Shown here piece by piece: positions 5,919-45,578 of a stretch of DNA of 64,000 nt. The position numbers and the translations under genes are program-made. This DNA is from an uncultured Ardenticatenia bacterium (GTDB lineage Bacteria > Chloroflexota > Anaerolineae > 4572-78 > NAK82). Where the stretch lies: positions 62,001 through 126,000 of the forward strand of contig CAKZLO010000032.1 in assembly GCA_937127125.1 (NCBI GenBank). The letters are read 5' to 3'. Numbering within the stretch: the stretch's first letter is position 1; every line of letters starts with the position of its first letter. The notes below the pieces were generated by a model that saw only the letters and a list, made by a program, of their open reading frames with translations, had not been told where the DNA came from and did not search any database.

Positions 5919-6059
5919 GCTGCGATAGAGATTCCAAAGACTCCAGAAGATGTTGTGTCGCACTGATTTCTGCAGGAAAGCGGATCTATAAAGAGGGTAA
6001 CTAAGACATTTTCCCCCAACGCTCTTCTCCGGAGTCTTCCCTTTGGCCTATCTGAGAGG

Positions 6060-6065
6060 TATAAT
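6060..6065 (+). promoter_or_regulatory. Candidate -10 element for the HAD-Sua5 fusion gene
   Basis: Perfect TATAAT 26 bases before the ATG at 6091. The matching -35 (TTCCCT, 17 bases upstream) is poor, so the site is only moderately supported. It argues against a start at TTG 6043, which would lie upstream of the predicted transcript start. Confidence 0.4.
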
Positions 6066-6090
6066 GCACTGTATTGGTACAGGTGTGGTG

Positions 6091-7620
6091 ATGTCTGTGA
6101 TGAGCTATGATGCATATAAAGCTGCATTCCTTAGCTGGAATAGTATTGTTACTGAGGATCCAAGACGTCTGCGCGATCCGTCGAAAATAGTCCTTGCTCC
6201 CGACGTGATCGTCGCGTTGCGGGTGCTTCAAAAATACTACAAGCTATTTATCTTGGCACACCAGCCCAGCATCACGGTAGAAGTAAGCGACTCTGCTCAG
6301 ATCGCCCATTTCCATGAGGATGTGCTGCAGCGTCTCGCTCACTATGGCGTTCAGGTTGAGCAAGTAATTAGTTATGTGAAAAACTCTCTGCATCCTTTCA
6401 TTGAAGTCGCTGAGGAGCGCAGGCTGGACTTGCCTGGGTCTCTTTGCATAAGCGATCGATCGCAGGACATAAAACTGGCCGGCCAAGTTGGTGCACGGGG
6501 CATTTATGTTATGAGTCGGAACAGCACCCAGACATGCCCAGATCTTCCCCCCGACTCGCTGATTGTCGTTGATATCTGGGACGCAGTGTTGCACGCGATG
6601 GAGATGCATCTTATCCAGCACAGGCAGCCTGCGCTATCGGATATAGAGCGAGCAGCTGAGATCTTGAGAGAAGGTGGAATAGTTGCATTTCCTACTGAGA
6701 CTGTCTACGGTCTTGGCGCAAATGCGCTCGATCCTATGGCTGTGGCACGAGTCTTTGAGATCAAGCGGCGCCCTCGCTTTGATCCGTTAATCGTGCACGT
6801 GGCTGACCCGCGCCAAGTGAACACTCTTGTTTCACAACTTCCTGGACAGGCGCAGAAATTGATAAATCTCTTTTGGCCAGGACCATTGACCATTGTGTTG
6901 CCCAAGAGCGACCGAGTCCCCGACATCGTCACCGCAGGGCTTTCGACCGTGGCCATTCGTATGCCCGACCATCCCGTTGCTCTGACCCTAATTCGCAGAT
7001 CGGGTGTGCCAATAGCGGCTCCAAGTGCTAATCTATTCGGCCACGTCAGCCCGACAATGGCAGAACATGTTTACCATCAGCTAGGTGATGCAGTTGACTT
7101 AGTGCTGAACGGCGGTCGCTGTCCGATAGGCATTGAGTCCACTGTGATCTCTGTTTCAGATGACGAAGCTGTGCTTCTACGTCTGGGTGGTTTGCCGGTC
7201 GAGGAACTCGAGCGTGTCATCGGTCCAGTGCAACGTCATATTAGGACGCAAGCGTCTCCTAAGTCGCCCGGTCAGCTTCCGCATCATTATGCGCCCCGAA
7301 CTCCTCTAGTGCTAAGAGATCGTAATGCTCCCGAACTTACACGACGGTGTGGTTTATTGTCTTTCACCGAGCCGACAAGTGCGGAGGGTTTCGTTGCTGT
7401 CGAAGTGCTCTCCAAGTCAGGGGATCTACGCGAGGCAGCTGCCAACTTGTTTGTTGCGCTTCATCGGTTGGATTCTATGCAACTTGAGCTTATTGTGGCG
7501 GAACTCGTTCCCGAGGTTGGCCTTGGGCAAGCCATCAATGATCGTCTTCGTCGCGCCGCACACAAGGGTGGCATCGGTTCCACTGGATCTCGTGAAGTGT
7601 CCGACGAGTCAAGAGCGTGA
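6091..7620 (+). CDS. Threonylcarbamoyl-AMP synthase (TsaC/Sua5) with N-terminal degenerate HAD-like domain
   Basis: The C-terminal 320 residues are a full Sua5: the YrdC fold (GIVAFPTETVYGLGANA, KRRPRFDPLIVHV, APSANLFGHVSPT, NGGRCPIGIESTV) plus the Sua5 tail with SPGQLPHHYAPRTPL. It makes threonylcarbamoyl-AMP for t6A37 of tRNAs. The first ~180 residues look like a heptose-bisphosphatase-type HAD fold: YKAAFLSWNS where family members have FLDRDGT, RDPSKIVLAPDVIVAL, then ISDRSQDIKLAGQVGA near the expected acidic motif. Both catalytic aspartates of the DxD motif are Ser15 and Asn17, so phosphatase activity is unlikely. ATG 6091 was chosen because a TATAAT lies at 6060. The fusion is unusual; the Sua5 call is firm, the HAD relation is inferred from pattern. 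Confidence 0.85.
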   Translation: MSVMSYDAYKAAFLSWNSIVTEDPRRLRDPSKIVLAPDVIVALRVLQKYYKLFILAHQPSITVEVSDSAQIAHFHEDVLQRLAHYGVQVEQVISYVKNSLHPFIEVAEERRLDLPGSLCISDRSQDIKLAGQVGARGIYVMSRNSTQTCPDLPPDSLIVVDIWDAVLHAMEMHLIQHRQPALSDIERAAEILREGGIVAFPTETVYGLGANALDPMAVARVFEIKRRPRFDPLIVHVADPRQVNTLVSQLPGQAQKLINLFWPGPLTIVLPKSDRVPDIVTAGLSTVAIRMPDHPVALTLIRRSGVPIAAPSANLFGHVSPTMAEHVYHQLGDAVDLVLNGGRCPIGIESTVISVSDDEAVLLRLGGLPVEELERVIGPVQRHIRTQASPKSPGQLPHHYAPRTPLVLRDRNAPELTRRCGLLSFTEPTSAEGFVAVEVLSKSGDLREAAANLFVALHRLDSMQLELIVAELVPEVGLGQAINDRLRRAAHKGGIGSTGSREVSDESRA

Positions 7621-36512: not shown

Positions 36513-37614
36513 CTATACAACCGTCTGGCGTAGATATGCCTCGATAAACTCGTCGATGTGTCCGTCCAGTACAGCTTCGGCATTGCCTACTTCGTAATTG
36601 GTACGATGGTCCTTGACCATTTTATAAGGATGTAACACATAAGAACGTATTTGGTTGCCCCAACCAGCTTCCACGTGCTCGCCCTTCAGGCGCGCTGCCT
36701 CTTCCTCGCGCTTCTGGCGCTCCAGTTCATACAGGCGGCCGCGCAGAATGCGCATAGCCATTTCGCGGTTCTGCATCTGCGACCGTTCATTCTGACAGGT
36801 GACCACGATACCTGTAGGAATATGCACCAGGCGTACAGCAGTAGCGTTCTTCTGCACATGCTGACCACCTGCCCCTGACGACTTGTACACATCCATACGA
36901 ATGTCTTCAGGGTTGATGTGTATCTCGATGTCATCCTCCAAGTTGGGCATCACTTCCACCAGTGCAAATGAAGTATGACGGCGATGCGCCGAATCGAACG
37001 GTGACAACCGTACCAGGCGATGCACTCCTCGTTCAGAGCGTAAGTAGCCGTAAGCGTAAGGTCCTTCGATCAACACAGTGACGCTTTTCAGACCTGCTTC
37101 TTCACCTTCCAGCGAATCGACAATTTCGGTCTTATAGCCTTTATCCTCTGCCCAGCGCAGATACATACGCAGCAACATTGCCACCCAGTCTTGACTCTCC
37201 GTACCTCCCGCGCCGGCATGGATGGAGAGCAAAGCATCATCGCGGTCGTGTTCGCCCGACATACGCAGTCGGAACTCCAGCTGTTCGAGCGTCTTCTGAA
37301 TGTCTGACGCCTCAGCTTCCAGTTCGGTTGCCATCGTCTCGTCCCGTTCAGTGCTGGCCAGCTCAGCCAGCTCCAGCGCATCAGTGACTCGCTGGTCTAA
37401 GCTGCGCCAAGTCTCTACCTCGTCGCGCAACGTGGCCAGTCGACGCATGTGAGTTTGTGCTGCGTCCTGATCACTCCAGAAATCAGGCGTCGCAGATTCC
37501 TCTTCTAGTTTCGCGATCTCTTGCTCCTTAGCAGCGAGGTCAAAGACGCACCATGATCTCGCTGATTCGCTGCCGCAAATCAGCTAATGTAGCGCGTGTT
37601 TCATCAATGCTCAT
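36513..37614 (-). CDS. prfB: Peptide chain release factor 2 with programmed +1 frameshift
   Basis: Recognises UGA and UAA stop codons. The gene is read in two frames: 24 codons from ATG 37614 (GAGGTG upstream) run into an in-frame UGA within CTTTGAC at 37539-37545, then the rest continues in the +1 frame. This is the autoregulatory frameshift of bacterial prfB: low RF2 favours shifting and more RF2. The main body shows the tripeptide region SPFDSAHRRHTSFALVEV, the hydrolysis motif SSGAGGQHVQKNATAVRL (GGQ) and YVLHPYKMVKDHRTNYEVGN. Reading only the long frame would give a protein lacking about 56 residues. Confidence 0.96.
37539..37545 (-). promoter_or_regulatory. prfB +1 frameshift site CTTTGAC
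   Basis: Slippery CTT followed by in-frame TGA and C, the canonical recoding site. The usual internal Shine-Dalgarno element before it is weak here (GGTG rather than AGGGGG). Confidence 0.93.
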
Positions 37615-41459: not shown

Positions 41460-41907
41460 TTTGTCACACTCCTGTCAAGGGAATCCTTAGCGGTTTGAAA
41501 CAGTGGATGCGAAACCCGGTTGAACCATTACCCAGGAAACGTATACCAGGCTACGGAGAATTGTGCAAACTCGTGGTCAGGAAAGGTAAATGGTGAGGGA
41601 GCTGGGTTCACCACGTGTTCTGTTCCCGGTGAATTACATTTAGGGGTCACAAATGGCTCCAAGGGCCAAGGCGTGGTGGCGCCGATGAGGCATCGCATGT
41701 TGGCCGATGTCAGTTTTAGCCCCCAACCAACTGATACCCGCGCACGGGTGATGGGATTTCAGGACCGAAACGCACTCAAGGGCAAACACTCGTGCTCACG
41801 AGCGCTTAGGGCACGCAATAAATGCATCGAGGCCCGGTCGATGCTATCACGCTTGATCGACAGCGTGCGCCATGAAAATAAATGTCATCACTTTTACATT
41901 ACCGGCC
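41460..41907. other. Hairpin-rich stretch without a convincing gene (candidate structured RNA or mobile-element relic)
   Basis: 450 bases between the epimerase start and the radical SAM gene end. Reading frames are short or lack codon character. Perfect inverted repeats line up in the right half: CGATG/CATCG (41683-41695), CTCGTG/CACGAG (41789-41802), GCATCGA/TCGATGC (41824-41844), CACGCT/AGCGTG (41848-41867); the left half has GGTGA/TCACC (41592-41612). On the minus strand the GCATCGA hairpin is followed by ATTTATT and could end the radical SAM transcript. The cause of the remaining structure is unknown; a group II intron or other ncRNA relic is possible. Confidence 0.4.
41824..41844 (-). 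terminator. Possible terminator of the radical SAM/SpeE-like operon
   Basis: Perfect 7-base stem GCATCGA/TCGATGC with a 7-base loop, followed on the minus strand by ATTTATT. It lies about 65 bases after the radical SAM stop. The T-run is short, so this is tentative. Confidence 0.35.
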
Positions 41908-43092
41908 TCATAATCGTTGCAACCACCAGAATCCCTGAATATCGAGGTTTGTGAGCCCTAAATCCTTTGCCTTCTGCACGACACTCAGGTATTCTTCTTG
42001 CGTAATTCTCCTGGATATTTCCGGATAGTCATACGCCTTGTGCATCGGGGTGTATTGCACCATAATGTTGACATACGTATCCTTGGGCAGGTTTTCTGCT
42101 ATCCACTCCATAACTTTCTCCGAGCCAGCGACACCATTCGGCATCACCAAATGCCGGATCATCAGTCCCCTCTGCATAATGCCGTCTTCCGCAGGCTTTG
42201 CCACACCAACTTGACGATGCATCTCAAGAATTGCTTTTCGGGTAACCTCAGGATAATTCTCGGCCCCCGCAGAGTACTTTGCTGACATTGTGCCATCCCA
42301 ATACTTGAAGTCGGGGAGATATATATCCACGACTCCATCAAGGAATGCGAGAATTTCGAGGCGTTCCCAGCCTGAGGTGTTATAAACGATAGGAAGCCGC
42401 AAACCTTTTCCAGCAGCTACATCCAGAGCCTTGAGAATGTGAGGGGAATAATGCGTCGGAGTGACAAGGTTGATATTGTGACAACCGATTTCTTGCAAGT
42501 ACAGCATCATCTCAGCAAATTCCTCAATGCTTGTTTCAGAGCCCCTGCCAAGATGACTAATTTCCCAGTTTTGGCAGAAGACACAGCGTAAATTGCAATG
42601 GGTCAGAAAGATCGTCCCCGAGCCACCTCTTCCAACCAACGGCCTTTCCTCGCCGAAATGTGGTTGATATGCTGAAATGACCAATGTGGCGCCAGGAGTA
42701 CGGCAGAATCCACTTGCTCCCTTCAGGCGATTTACCCCACATCTTCTCGGGCAGAGCTGGCATTTTTCCATAATGGCCCAGAGTTCTTCTGCTCGCTCCT
42801 TTAGTTGGCCTGTTCTGTGAAGCTCCAGATATGCTGGTTCGAAGTCGGACCGAGGCTGAGCCGAGTTTTCTTCACTTTCCTGATGATCCTCATTCTCGAT
42901 ATCATCTTCCGGTTCCTTGTTCTCTACATCATTTTCATCCTCGATCTCATTTTCGCTTTCCATCACATCGCTTGGTTGTTCCGTCCTTGCACACCCAAGC
43001 AGAGTCGAAGGCAGTGCGGCTAAAAAACAGAACTTAGCTGCGTTTGCCAGGAAATCCCTTCGGGTGAACGCCCTGAAAAGAAGATCGTCCAT
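41908..43092 (-). CDS. Radical SAM protein (PflX/COG1313-like) with Tat lipoprotein signal
   Basis: Radical SAM core with CNLRCVFC (Cys166, 170, 173), preceded by a cysteine-rich CQLCPRRCGVNR and GFCR segment as in pyruvate-formate-lyase-activating-enzyme-like PflX proteins; later blocks LVTPTHYSPHI, YLPDFKYWDG and IRHLVMPNG also fit. The N-terminus is an extra ~95 residues: twin-arginine signal TRRDFLANAAKF, lipobox LLGC (Cys34), then an acidic Glu/Asp/Asn-rich linker (43-78). This predicts a lipid-anchored enzyme outside the cytoplasm, which is odd for an enzyme needing SAM and low-potential electrons. GGAGGTG precedes the ATG. It lies 28 bases downstream of the membrane SpeE-like gene. Confidence 0.85.
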   Translation of the reverse strand: MDDLLFRAFTRRDFLANAAKFCFLAALPSTLLGCARTEQPSDVMESENEIEDENDVENKEPEDDIENEDHQESEENSAQPRSDFEPAYLELHRTGQLKERAEELWAIMEKCQLCPRRCGVNRLKGASGFCRTPGATLVISAYQPHFGEERPLVGRGGSGTIFLTHCNLRCVFCQNWEISHLGRGSETSIEEFAEMMLYLQEIGCHNINLVTPTHYSPHILKALDVAAGKGLRLPIVYNTSGWERLEILAFLDGVVDIYLPDFKYWDGTMSAKYSAGAENYPEVTRKAILEMHRQVGVAKPAEDGIMQRGLMIRHLVMPNGVAGSEKVMEWIAENLPKDTYVNIMVQYTPMHKAYDYPEISRRITQEEYLSVVQKAKDLGLTNLDIQGFWWLQRL

Positions 43093-43120
43093 CTATCCAC
43101 ACCTCCTCTAACCCATAAAC

Positions 43121-45424
43121 CTAGCTCCTCGCAGAAACTAACTGAGGCTGTGTATATACGACGATGAAGCTCGCCAGCTTAAGCAGCCCTATTGTAACAC
43201 AGGTCCCACTGACTCCGAGAACAGGAAGAAGCACCACAGCACCCACAATGCCACCTAGCCAGCCCCCCAACAGGTCAGTGGCATACAGCAATCCAGCAGT
43301 CCTGGTCAAACCAGCGCTGTGTTTCAGATAAAACTTATTAGCCAAGGGGAACTGGGAACCCACCATGAGTCCGCAGAAAAATGCAATTACCAGAAACAGC
43401 AATTTCACACCAAAGGAGGAGATCTCATTATCTGCATATGCATTGATGCCGAACAACGCTACGGGTAGTCCAATGGAAAGACAAACGATAGCTAGTTCAA
43501 TTTTCAGGAAGGGGTTCATTTCGTTTTGTATACGTGCCAACACCATCGACATAAGCATACCCCCACAAGCTGCACCCGCCATAAAGGATGCCACAAGAAT
43601 TCCAATCCATGAGAATATGTACCCATAAATTGATTGAAAGGCAAATACCAGCACAAGATCATATATCATTCCTGCGAAACCGGTTGTAGCAACTGAGAAG
43701 GGAATACACACCGAGTAAAATCGTGTGTGCCTTGATCGAACGACGAAATAGAAGAGAAGAAATGCGGCGAACAAAATGAGAATGATTTCAAGATTTATCC
43801 TCTCAAGCTGGTTGAACACTCGGCCAAATGACGGTGCATACAGGGCATTCCAATATGCGATATTGTAAAACAGTGCTATGGGCCTGAAATCGTAGTTGAT
43901 TTCCTGGCTGCCACCTTCAAGAAAATGGACAAGCCAGTCCTGCCAACCGGGGTGCAACTTTTGCTCAATGCGCCAAGGCATTGTAGTCTCTGCTGCCATA
44001 TTCCGTTCGTTCAGTCTTTCTATAACCTGTGCCTTGTCAATTGTTAGAGCCTCTTTGGAATTTGACGAGAGGAAAATGTTTACGCCGTCACCCGGAATCA
44101 TCCGTACGGAGGAGAACACGCTGCTCAGTGTGTGAAAAACACAGCTATTCAAATCCCTTATTTCTTCATTTAGAAGGGTTAAAGAACCGGGCGCTCCAAG
44201 CACCAGAATACCCTCTTCGTTTAATCGTTGCTTTACAAGGGTGAAGAACTCCTTTGTAAAGAACCTATTGACCTGAAGGTCTGATGGCTCAGTCATCCCG
44301 ATGAAGATTACGTCATACTTATTCGGTGTTGATTTGAGCAACAGACGGCCGTCAACATGTTCTGTTTTCACTCTCTTATCATTCAGTTCTGCCTCTGTCA
44401 GCGGCGTAGGATATTTTCTAAAAAGAGAGAGAAGCAATGGGTCAAGTTCCACATATTCAATCGTTTGTACTGAGGGATGCTTCAATACCTCGTGGATCGT
44501 GCCACCCACTCCACCGCTCACGATTAAGACGTTCACCGGCTCCCGATGAGCAAGAAGTGGAAGATGAACGAACTCCTCAACAAACGGTATGTCTGGAATA
44601 GGTGTTATAATCGTAGGGGCTCCATCGAGGAAGTAAATATATTGCCCCTGGTTTTCAACAACACAGATGTTGCCATATTGAGAGTTCTGATAATGGACGA
44701 CGTTGAGGTTCTTCCATTGCATTTGCACTGAATAATGGTGCAACCTGTCTGTATGCCCACTGAGCATCGGATAACCAAAAGAAAAGGTTATCACGGCCTG
44801 TGCAACCACAAGCGCCTTTTGAAGAGGCCTAATCCTCCAGTAAGGGACAAGCAAAGCAACGCATACAATGGAATTCAACAGGGCGAGTCCAAAGGCGGTC
44901 TGAAATGTGTCCAGATAGGGGATCAGAAGGTATGTACAAACGACCCCACCTATAATTGTACCTATGGTCTCATAAACATAAACCTTACCAGTGGTAGCAG
45001 CATCCTGCGCGCAGAACATTGAATAAATTCGGCAGCTAAGTGGGAACAATGCTCCGTGAGATGTGCTTACCGGTATAAGAATGACGAAAGAGGAATAGAA
45101 CATTGGTAGCAATCCAATGTCTTCACCGACAGAAACACCCAGCATGTTTCTCAGAAGACGGATCAGGAGAATAGCTACGATGAGGCTTGAAGAAAAGAGG
45201 AGTGTGGTCAGTATAAACGCTCCCACCCCATTCTTGGATCGTTCGGCCGTTTTGCCGGCAAGGAAACTTCCCATCGCTTCAAGGGCAAGCCAATTGGCAA
45301 GGACAATGCCAATGGAGATCTCATTGCCTGAGAAAACGACGAGGAATTCCCGCAAAAGGAGTATCTCAGCAACCAGTCCGCTGAATCCCATCACCAATAT
45401 CGCTATGCGAACGACCGTTTTCAT
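43121..45424 (-). CDS. Fused membrane transporter-like / spermidine-synthase-like protein
   Basis: About seven to eight N-terminal transmembrane helices, a central SpeE-like Rossmann methyltransferase fold (about 245-490), and six or more C-terminal helices (545-770). In SpeE the SAM-site motif is GGGDGG and the catalytic motif is D-x-x-D-P; here they read SGGVGG (310-315) and IGMTEPSD (382-389), so the key acidic residues are missing, and ordinary aminopropyl transfer is doubtful. YVELDPLLLSLFRKY and DGRLLLKS retain the SAM-binding fold (E-x-D). ATG 45424 has AAGAGGTC before it; the annotated ATG 45445 lacks a site. By eye the gene is AT-richer than its neighbours. It is followed by the radical SAM gene. 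Confidence 0.85.
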   Translation of the reverse strand: MKTVVRIAILVMGFSGLVAEILLLREFLVVFSGNEISIGIVLANWLALEAMGSFLAGKTAERSKNGVGAFILTTLLFSSSLIVAILLIRLLRNMLGVSVGEDIGLLPMFYSSFVILIPVSTSHGALFPLSCRIYSMFCAQDAATTGKVYVYETIGTIIGGVVCTYLLIPYLDTFQTAFGLALLNSIVCVALLVPYWRIRPLQKALVVAQAVITFSFGYPMLSGHTDRLHHYSVQMQWKNLNVVHYQNSQYGNICVVENQGQYIYFLDGAPTIITPIPDIPFVEEFVHLPLLAHREPVNVLIVSGGVGGTIHEVLKHPSVQTIEYVELDPLLLSLFRKYPTPLTEAELNDKRVKTEHVDGRLLLKSTPNKYDVIFIGMTEPSDLQVNRFFTKEFFTLVKQRLNEEGILVLGAPGSLTLLNEEIRDLNSCVFHTLSSVFSSVRMIPGDGVNIFLSSNSKEALTIDKAQVIERLNERNMAAETTMPWRIEQKLHPGWQDWLVHFLEGGSQEINYDFRPIALFYNIAYWNALYAPSFGRVFNQLERINLEIILILFAAFLLFYFVVRSRHTRFYSVCIPFSVATTGFAGMIYDLVLVFAFQSIYGYIFSWIGILVASFMAGAACGGMLMSMVLARIQNEMNPFLKIELAIVCLSIGLPVALFGINAYADNEISSFGVKLLFLVIAFFCGLMVGSQFPLANKFYLKHSAGLTRTAGLLYATDLLGGWLGGIVGAVVLLPVLGVSGTCVTIGLLKLASFIVVYTQPQLVSARS

Positions 45425-45550
45425 CAAACTAGACCTCTTGGTCATGGGAAGCTGCTACTTGCTGTTAGTGCAGCTTCCGGTGGCTCTCCAACAGCATTGC
45501 TGTCGTATCAACTCAGGATAGGTTGCCCCGAAACGGTTACCTGGAATTTT

Positions 45551-45578
45551 ATTATAGCAGCACTCGAACTTCTGTGAC
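45551..45578 (-). promoter_or_regulatory. Promoter for the SpeE-like/radical SAM operon
   Basis: Minus strand GTCACA, 16-base spacer, TATAAT, about 120 bases before ATG 45424. The -10 is perfect, the -35 matches four of six bases. Confidence 0.5.

Follow-up and report, generated by a model that had tools for sequence, protein, structure and literature searches.

Radical SAM enzymes are, to our knowledge, regarded as cytoplasmic, since SAM, cluster assembly and low-potential electron donors are located there. Among open-access papers in PMC, none that describes a radical SAM enzyme as exported, secreted or periplasmic was found, and the papers listed for PflX, COG1313 and AmmeMemoRadiSam contained only passing mentions or unrelated uses. 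The window, i.e., the whole 64,000-nucleotide stretch of DNA analysed here, encodes a radical SAM enzyme that resembles cytoplasmic PflX-like proteins, which we take to be of the COG1313 type. A core of about 300 residues (43–56% identical) and the four-Cys, CxxxCxxC and TPTHY motifs are common to both, but the cytoplasmic proteins start at about residue 84 of the window enzyme and have neither a signal peptide nor a membrane partner. The AmmeMemoRadiSam enzyme (TIGR04337) has a related N-terminal Cys motif and a PFL-AE-like core, and its exported variants adjoin the same kind of membrane protein as the window enzyme. However, the window enzyme scored only 22.4 bits against the TIGR04337 cut-off of 220, and sampled TIGR04337 members mostly lacked a signal peptide (27 of 30).

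The membrane protein encoded next to the enzyme (hereafter the partner) passed NF037959, the model of fused MFS/spermidine synthases (77.3 bits, cut-off 40), and matched PRK03612 (NF002956) across both its transmembrane (TM) part and its domain. These described proteins have an N-terminal TM block only, whereas the partner has 14 helices. Moreover, the partner fell far below the cut-off of NF002956, a polyamine aminopropyltransferase model, and has lost the catalytic residues. A likeness of features exists to the fungal N-terminal histidine methyltransferase NHMT, a protein of the secretory pathway in which seven TM helices also precede a spermidine-synthase-like SAM domain that has lost the acid of GxG(D/E)G (PMC10349129). 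In contrast to the partner, NHMT is eukaryotic and has neither a second seven-helix block nor a radical SAM enzyme paired with it; its TM domain has been called unique to filamentous fungi (PMC10349129).

The radical SAM enzyme and its predicted export

The features of the radical SAM gene, which is read from 43092 to 41908, are the following:

41908..43092, minus strand: radical SAM enzyme of 394 aa with a PFL-activase-like fold and PflX-like sequence (ORF, Pfam, AlphaFold2, Foldseek)
43101..43108, minus strand: Shine-Dalgarno sequence GAGGAGGT, 8 nt from the ATG
42991..43092, minus strand: N-terminal Tat signal with lipobox, residues 1–34 (RR codons 43057–43062; LLGC codons 42991–43002)
42838..42978, minus strand: acidic linker, residues 39–85, predicted to be disordered to about residue 80 (sequence, AlphaFold2)
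42703..42762, minus strand: four-Cys motif C111-x2-C114-x3-C118-x11-C130, a possible second metal site (conservation)
42574..42597, minus strand: radical SAM cluster motif C166-x3-C170-x2-C173, invariant in 69 sequences
41824..41844, minus strand: terminator-like hairpin 3′ of the gene (consensus match only; 7 such hairpins found vs 4.3 expected)

A sequence-only reading had proposed a PflX-like radical SAM enzyme at this position, exported as a lipoprotein. The ORF is real, although that reading did not state its strand, and the residues it had numbered (Arg11-Arg12, Cys34, the acidic stretch 43–78, and C166/C170/C173) were placed correctly. The radical SAM identity was borne out by Pfam Radical_SAM (PF04055; 49.9 bits, cut-off 29.5) and by the three cluster Cys residues. 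In the same 69-sequence alignment, C111, C114 and C130 were also invariant, and C118 was retained in at least 90%. A GGE-type SAM-binding motif was not found; its site is occupied by VTPTHYSP across the PflX-like family. The GGE-type motif is typical but not universal, and variants are known in other radical SAM families. As judged from its sequence, the assignment of the window enzyme to the radical SAM superfamily stands, the loss of GGE notwithstanding. Because TPTHY replaces GGE in the PflX-like family, we infer SAM use itself from the fold and the cluster motif.

The AlphaFold2 model (69 homologues) had a mean pLDDT of 88 and consisted of an N-terminal helix (residues 11–35), a disordered linker (39–80) and a well-folded core, mostly at 93–99. 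The nearest solved structures were PFL-activating enzymes, with PFL-AE 3c8f as the best Foldseek match (E 2.7e-8), whereas phmmer searches of the PDB with the single sequence gave no match, nor did the family profile. None of the curated NCBIfam equivalogs names the enzyme, and the activase models TIGR02493 and TIGR02494 gave only 17.4 and 16.5 bits against cut-offs of 231.75 and 174.35, respectively. A plasmid search returned distant homologues only, with coverage of the core only, and no Rfam family was found near the locus.

The start codon is backed by the strong Shine-Dalgarno sequence and by homologues from other phyla, which align with the window enzyme from residue 1. Homologues that start near residue 108 and lack the N-terminus, which would have spoken against the proposed signal, did not occur in the close family. 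The N-terminus was missing only in more distant, presumably cytoplasmic homologues, two of them in the host genome.

The twin-arginine signal in the sequence-only reading proved to be shared well beyond the window enzyme. The window enzyme has T10-R11-R12-D13-F14-L15 followed by an h-region and LLGC at residues 31–34, with Cys34 as the lipobox Cys, and the host genome encodes both TatC and Lgt. The window enzyme thus has the RRxF motif, h-region and host translocase of a Tat substrate, as well as the lipobox Cys after the h-region and the host Lgt of a bacterial lipoprotein. An N-terminal extension is present in 59 homologues. Of these, 54 had RRx[FLICV] within the first 50 residues (8.6% expected from composition), and the other five had an RK variant or another hydrophobic N-terminus. 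The variants include TRKTF in place of the RR motif in one relative (L050), and another hydrophobic N-terminus in four (L059, L067, L069, and L080). In partner-linked homologues, column identity was 92% for both Arg residues and 84% for Phe14, compared to 18–45% for most neighboring columns. Pfam TAT_signal and NCBIfam TAT_signal_seq matched some members of the family. On sequence grounds, the Tat signal is a property of the extended homologues as a family.

The proposed lipoprotein status held for the window enzyme but not for its family. Since the lipobox Cys was retained in just 12 of 54 relatives, the predicted lipidation is a local feature of the window enzyme and not a family rule; most relatives probably rely on signal cleavage or an uncleaved anchor instead. 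The acidic linker is likewise real, spanning about residues 43–78, but particular to this protein: alignment columns 44–60 are gaps in at least 95% of partner-linked homologues, so that a linker of this length appears specific to the window enzyme.

The outside location that the sequence-only reading had regarded as a puzzle is a supported prediction. It draws on the Tat motif conserved across phyla, on the other hydrophobic N-termini that take its place in some relatives, and on the outward topology predicted for the partner. The partner, which that reading had not seen, is more telling evidence of export than the features it listed.

The membrane partner and the two-gene cassette

The partner gene is the next gene upstream, and its stop codon precedes the start of the enzyme gene by 28 nt. 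Its features are the following:

43121..45445, minus strand: partner gene, a 774-aa 14-TM protein with a spermidine-synthase-like domain (Pfam, NCBIfam, neighborhood, hydropathy, AlphaFold2)
45551..45578, minus strand: promoter-like site upstream of the gene (consensus match only; not above shuffle expectation)
44759..45409, minus strand: TM1–TM7 (hydropathy, model, charge; TM1–6 repeated in TM9–14)
43799..44758, minus strand: spermidine-synthase-like domain, flanked by TM7 and TM8 and predicted to be extracytoplasmic (Pfam, topology)
43154..43798, minus strand: TM8–TM14 (hydropathy, model, repeat, charge)

Family hydropathy and the AlphaFold2 model (pLDDT 88.6) agreed on a layout in which two sets of seven TM helices enclose a domain of about 320 residues. 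TM9–14 repeat TM1–6 (hhalign E 1e-12; 0.36 for the reversed control), and the domain is flanked by TM7 and TM8, outside these repeats. The partner therefore has two homologous, parallel six-TM halves of MFS type. We do not assign it to MFS proper, as Pfam MFS_1 matched only 2 of 39 partner members. Lys and Arg residues were concentrated in the even-numbered, putatively inside loops (median of 20 per partner, compared to 4 in the outside loops), with the inside count greater in all 39 partners. This charge bias places loop 7, which holds the domain with a SAM-binding fold, outside the cell in the predicted topology.

In about 40 loci, the partner gene lies directly upstream of the radical SAM gene and has the same orientation. 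Neighbor clustering over these loci revealed the partner (family c1) as the sole conserved neighbor, while the remaining neighbors differed. The intergenic distance was between −25 and +60 nt in 32 of 39 loci, and many of the genes overlapped. The loci represent 16 named phyla, and many are from metagenome-assembled genomes; isolates with the cassette include Thermodesulfovibrio sp. N1, Desulfobulbus alkaliphilus, and Desulfobotulus alkaliphilus, the last of which was confirmed separately. It is well supported that the enzyme and the partner form a conserved unit. In the radical SAM tree, the partner-linked sequences form one main clade in which phyla are mixed, and this suggests lateral spread of the cassette.

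About ten genomes, some of them drafts, encode a radical SAM homologue, mostly with an export signal, and gave no partner homologue at E 1e-40. The partner cannot therefore be strictly required everywhere. On the PflX-like family tree, with only three to five independent pairs, the link between partner and export was not significant, whereas the association holds in a second radical SAM family, that of the AmmeMemo-type enzymes. All eight such enzymes that adjoin a partner had a Tat-like signal, compared to 3 of 30 in a comparison sample of Chloroflexota TIGR04337 genes chosen irrespective of the partner, in which the other 27 had no signal peptide (hypergeometric 3e-6, a value that takes no account of relatedness or of the smaller taxonomic breadth of the comparison sample). 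The eight are the copy on contig 34 of the host genome, L164, L168, L169 and L174, together with L084, L092 and L099, which were counted as AmmeMemo-type by inspection; L084, L168 and L169 have KR instead of RR.

In the host genome, 30 radical SAM loci were examined, and three of them had a convincing Tat signal, i.e., those in the window, on contig 34 and on contig 35. A fourth automatic Tat match (L182, IRRVV) was judged to be false. On contig 34 (L142:14048-17648), a second cassette consists of a 797-aa 14-TM paralogue of the partner and a convergent gene for an AmmeMemo-type radical SAM enzyme with a Tat-lipoprotein signal, which scored 343 bits with TIGR04337 (cut-off 220) and carries TRREFLGEGLLASLTAALAAC. 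The paralogue has 18 Lys and Arg residues in its inside loops, compared to 2 outside. On contig 35 (L145:4361-7487), immediately downstream of cytochrome c biogenesis genes that resemble those for ResB and CcsB, a radical SAM enzyme with a Tat signal is followed by a Memo-AMMECR1 fusion. This fusion passed both TIGR04336 and TIGR04335 and has a lipobox of its own (LLLLSAC). Because this neighbor has its own lipoprotein signal, the entire contig 35 AmmeMemoRadiSam system looks extracytoplasmic, as predicted from its sequences. Many mostly oxygen-avoiding bacteria appear to export a radical SAM enzyme to the outer face of the inner membrane, as far as can be predicted, and in most cases the 14-TM partner is encoded next to it.

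Some loci hold more than one radical SAM gene. At L084, L092 and L099, the partner is accompanied by a short Tat PflX-like enzyme and, on the strand opposite the short one, by a longer Tat radical SAM paralogue; at L085, a short and a longer enzyme are side by side. Two Bacteroidales PflX-like copies (L078:6025-6948 and L079:5998-6915) had no export signal, although they are nested among exported relatives. Their genomes also encode, next to a homologue of the partner, an AmmeMemo-type enzyme that does carry an export signal (L168 and L169).

Possible roles of the enzyme and its partner

The Tat signal on the radical SAM protein, with a lipobox in the window enzyme, is well supported, and so is the architecture of the partner, i.e., two six-helix MFS-like repeats with an outer SAM-binding-fold domain between TM7 and TM8. 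We consider it probable that the genes at 45445–43121 and 43092–41908 encode an outward-facing, membrane-tethered radical SAM module of two proteins. This judgement covers the module and not the SAM-supply step discussed below. The enzyme would fold and acquire its [4Fe-4S] cluster in the cytoplasm, cross the membrane in the folded state through Tat, and remain at the outer face next to the partner. A periplasmic FeFe hydrogenase provides a precedent for Tat lipoproteins with Fe-S clusters (PMC10924467).

As to what the partner does, we tentatively favor a role in SAM supply. Its MFS-like part may carry SAM across the membrane or remove used adenosyl products, and the domain on the outer side may bind SAM and supply it to the enzyme, whose 5′-deoxyadenosyl radical would then act on an envelope substrate. 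Such a role would explain why two different families of exported radical SAM enzymes adjoin one kind of membrane protein. In its broadest form, the proposal is that at least 16 phyla perform extracytoplasmic radical SAM chemistry, with a dedicated membrane protein that passes SAM to Tat-exported enzymes of at least two families. We regard this generalization as unlikely, if conceivable; were it true, it would imply a physiological extracytoplasmic SAM pool and a route by which low-potential electrons reach the outer face.

The domain of the partner matched Pfam Spermine_synth, and its nearest structures were spermidine synthases, but neither acidic determinant of a spermidine synthase was found. 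Position 313, where GxG(D/E)G has its acidic residue, is Ala in 33 of 40 partners and Val in the window partner, and the catalytic-Asp position 383 is Gly in 37 of 40. SAM-site residues are kept (GGxGG, E333, D335, D365, and D378), and PSxLQxNRFF is a new conserved motif of the partner family. This pattern of loss and retention would also suit a methyltransferase, or another transferase dependent on SAM, that faces outward, shares the envelope substrate of the enzyme and receives SAM outside by another route, a reading that we consider possible but somewhat doubtful. NHMT lends it weight, as this 7-TM protein of the ER acts through its spermidine-synthase-like methyltransferase domain on secreted LPMOs and likewise lacks the GxG(D/E)G acid (PMC10349129). 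However, a transferase would leave the 14 helices in an MFS-like repeat unexplained, and the occurrence of two radical SAM families with one kind of membrane protein suggests a shared need and not a single substrate. The SAM-supply reading is favored over a transferase because SAM is the only obvious need common to both families. The pairing also singles out a specific candidate protein for SAM export in bacteria or for SAM-dependent transfer on the outer side of the membrane.

It is improbable that the N-terminal helix is a mere anchor or a vestigial signal, with the radical SAM domain in the cytoplasm. Established knowledge places SAM and the known electron donors there, and many relatives lack a lipobox or a clear cleavage site. 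A plain anchor, however, would not need an RR pair conserved at 92% amid variable neighboring positions, and the positive charges before the helix predict an N-in, C-out orientation. The partner domain is independently predicted to be outside, and the neighbor of the exported contig 35 enzyme bears a lipoprotein signal of its own.

Despite the match to PFL-AE 3c8f, a role as activase of a glycyl-radical enzyme is highly improbable, as every activase equivalog model fell far below its cut-off, no glycyl-radical gene was among the neighbors, and no Gly_radical domain was detected in the host genome (E. coli, Bacteroides and Lactococcus were positive controls), which excludes this role for the host within the limits of a genome that is 95% complete. 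Equally remote is an ordinary membrane-bound spermidine synthase acting with the enzyme in polyamine metabolism: despite the Spermine_synth domain and the structural kinship, both acidic determinants are lost, all aminopropyltransferase equivalog models were below cut-off on the partner, and polyamine synthesis is unlikely because no AdoMet decarboxylase was found in the host genome by a search that was positive in 8 of 14 control genomes.

The favored reading, an exported two-protein module, would mean that radical SAM chemistry is perhaps not confined to the cell interior. If this conserved module is indeed exported, SAM and strongly reducing electrons can be made available outside, and unexplored modifications of the envelope could be expected.

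Minor observations were made elsewhere in the window. At 37539–37614 on the minus strand, prfB (release factor 2) has the classical programmed frameshift site CTTTGAC about 25 codons past its ATG, and the listed ORF 36513–37448 is only the downstream part of this gene. Sua5 (threonylcarbamoyl-AMP synthase; 6043–7620, plus strand) is extended at its N-terminus by about 200 aa, a region that gave no Pfam match and looks HAD-like by eye.
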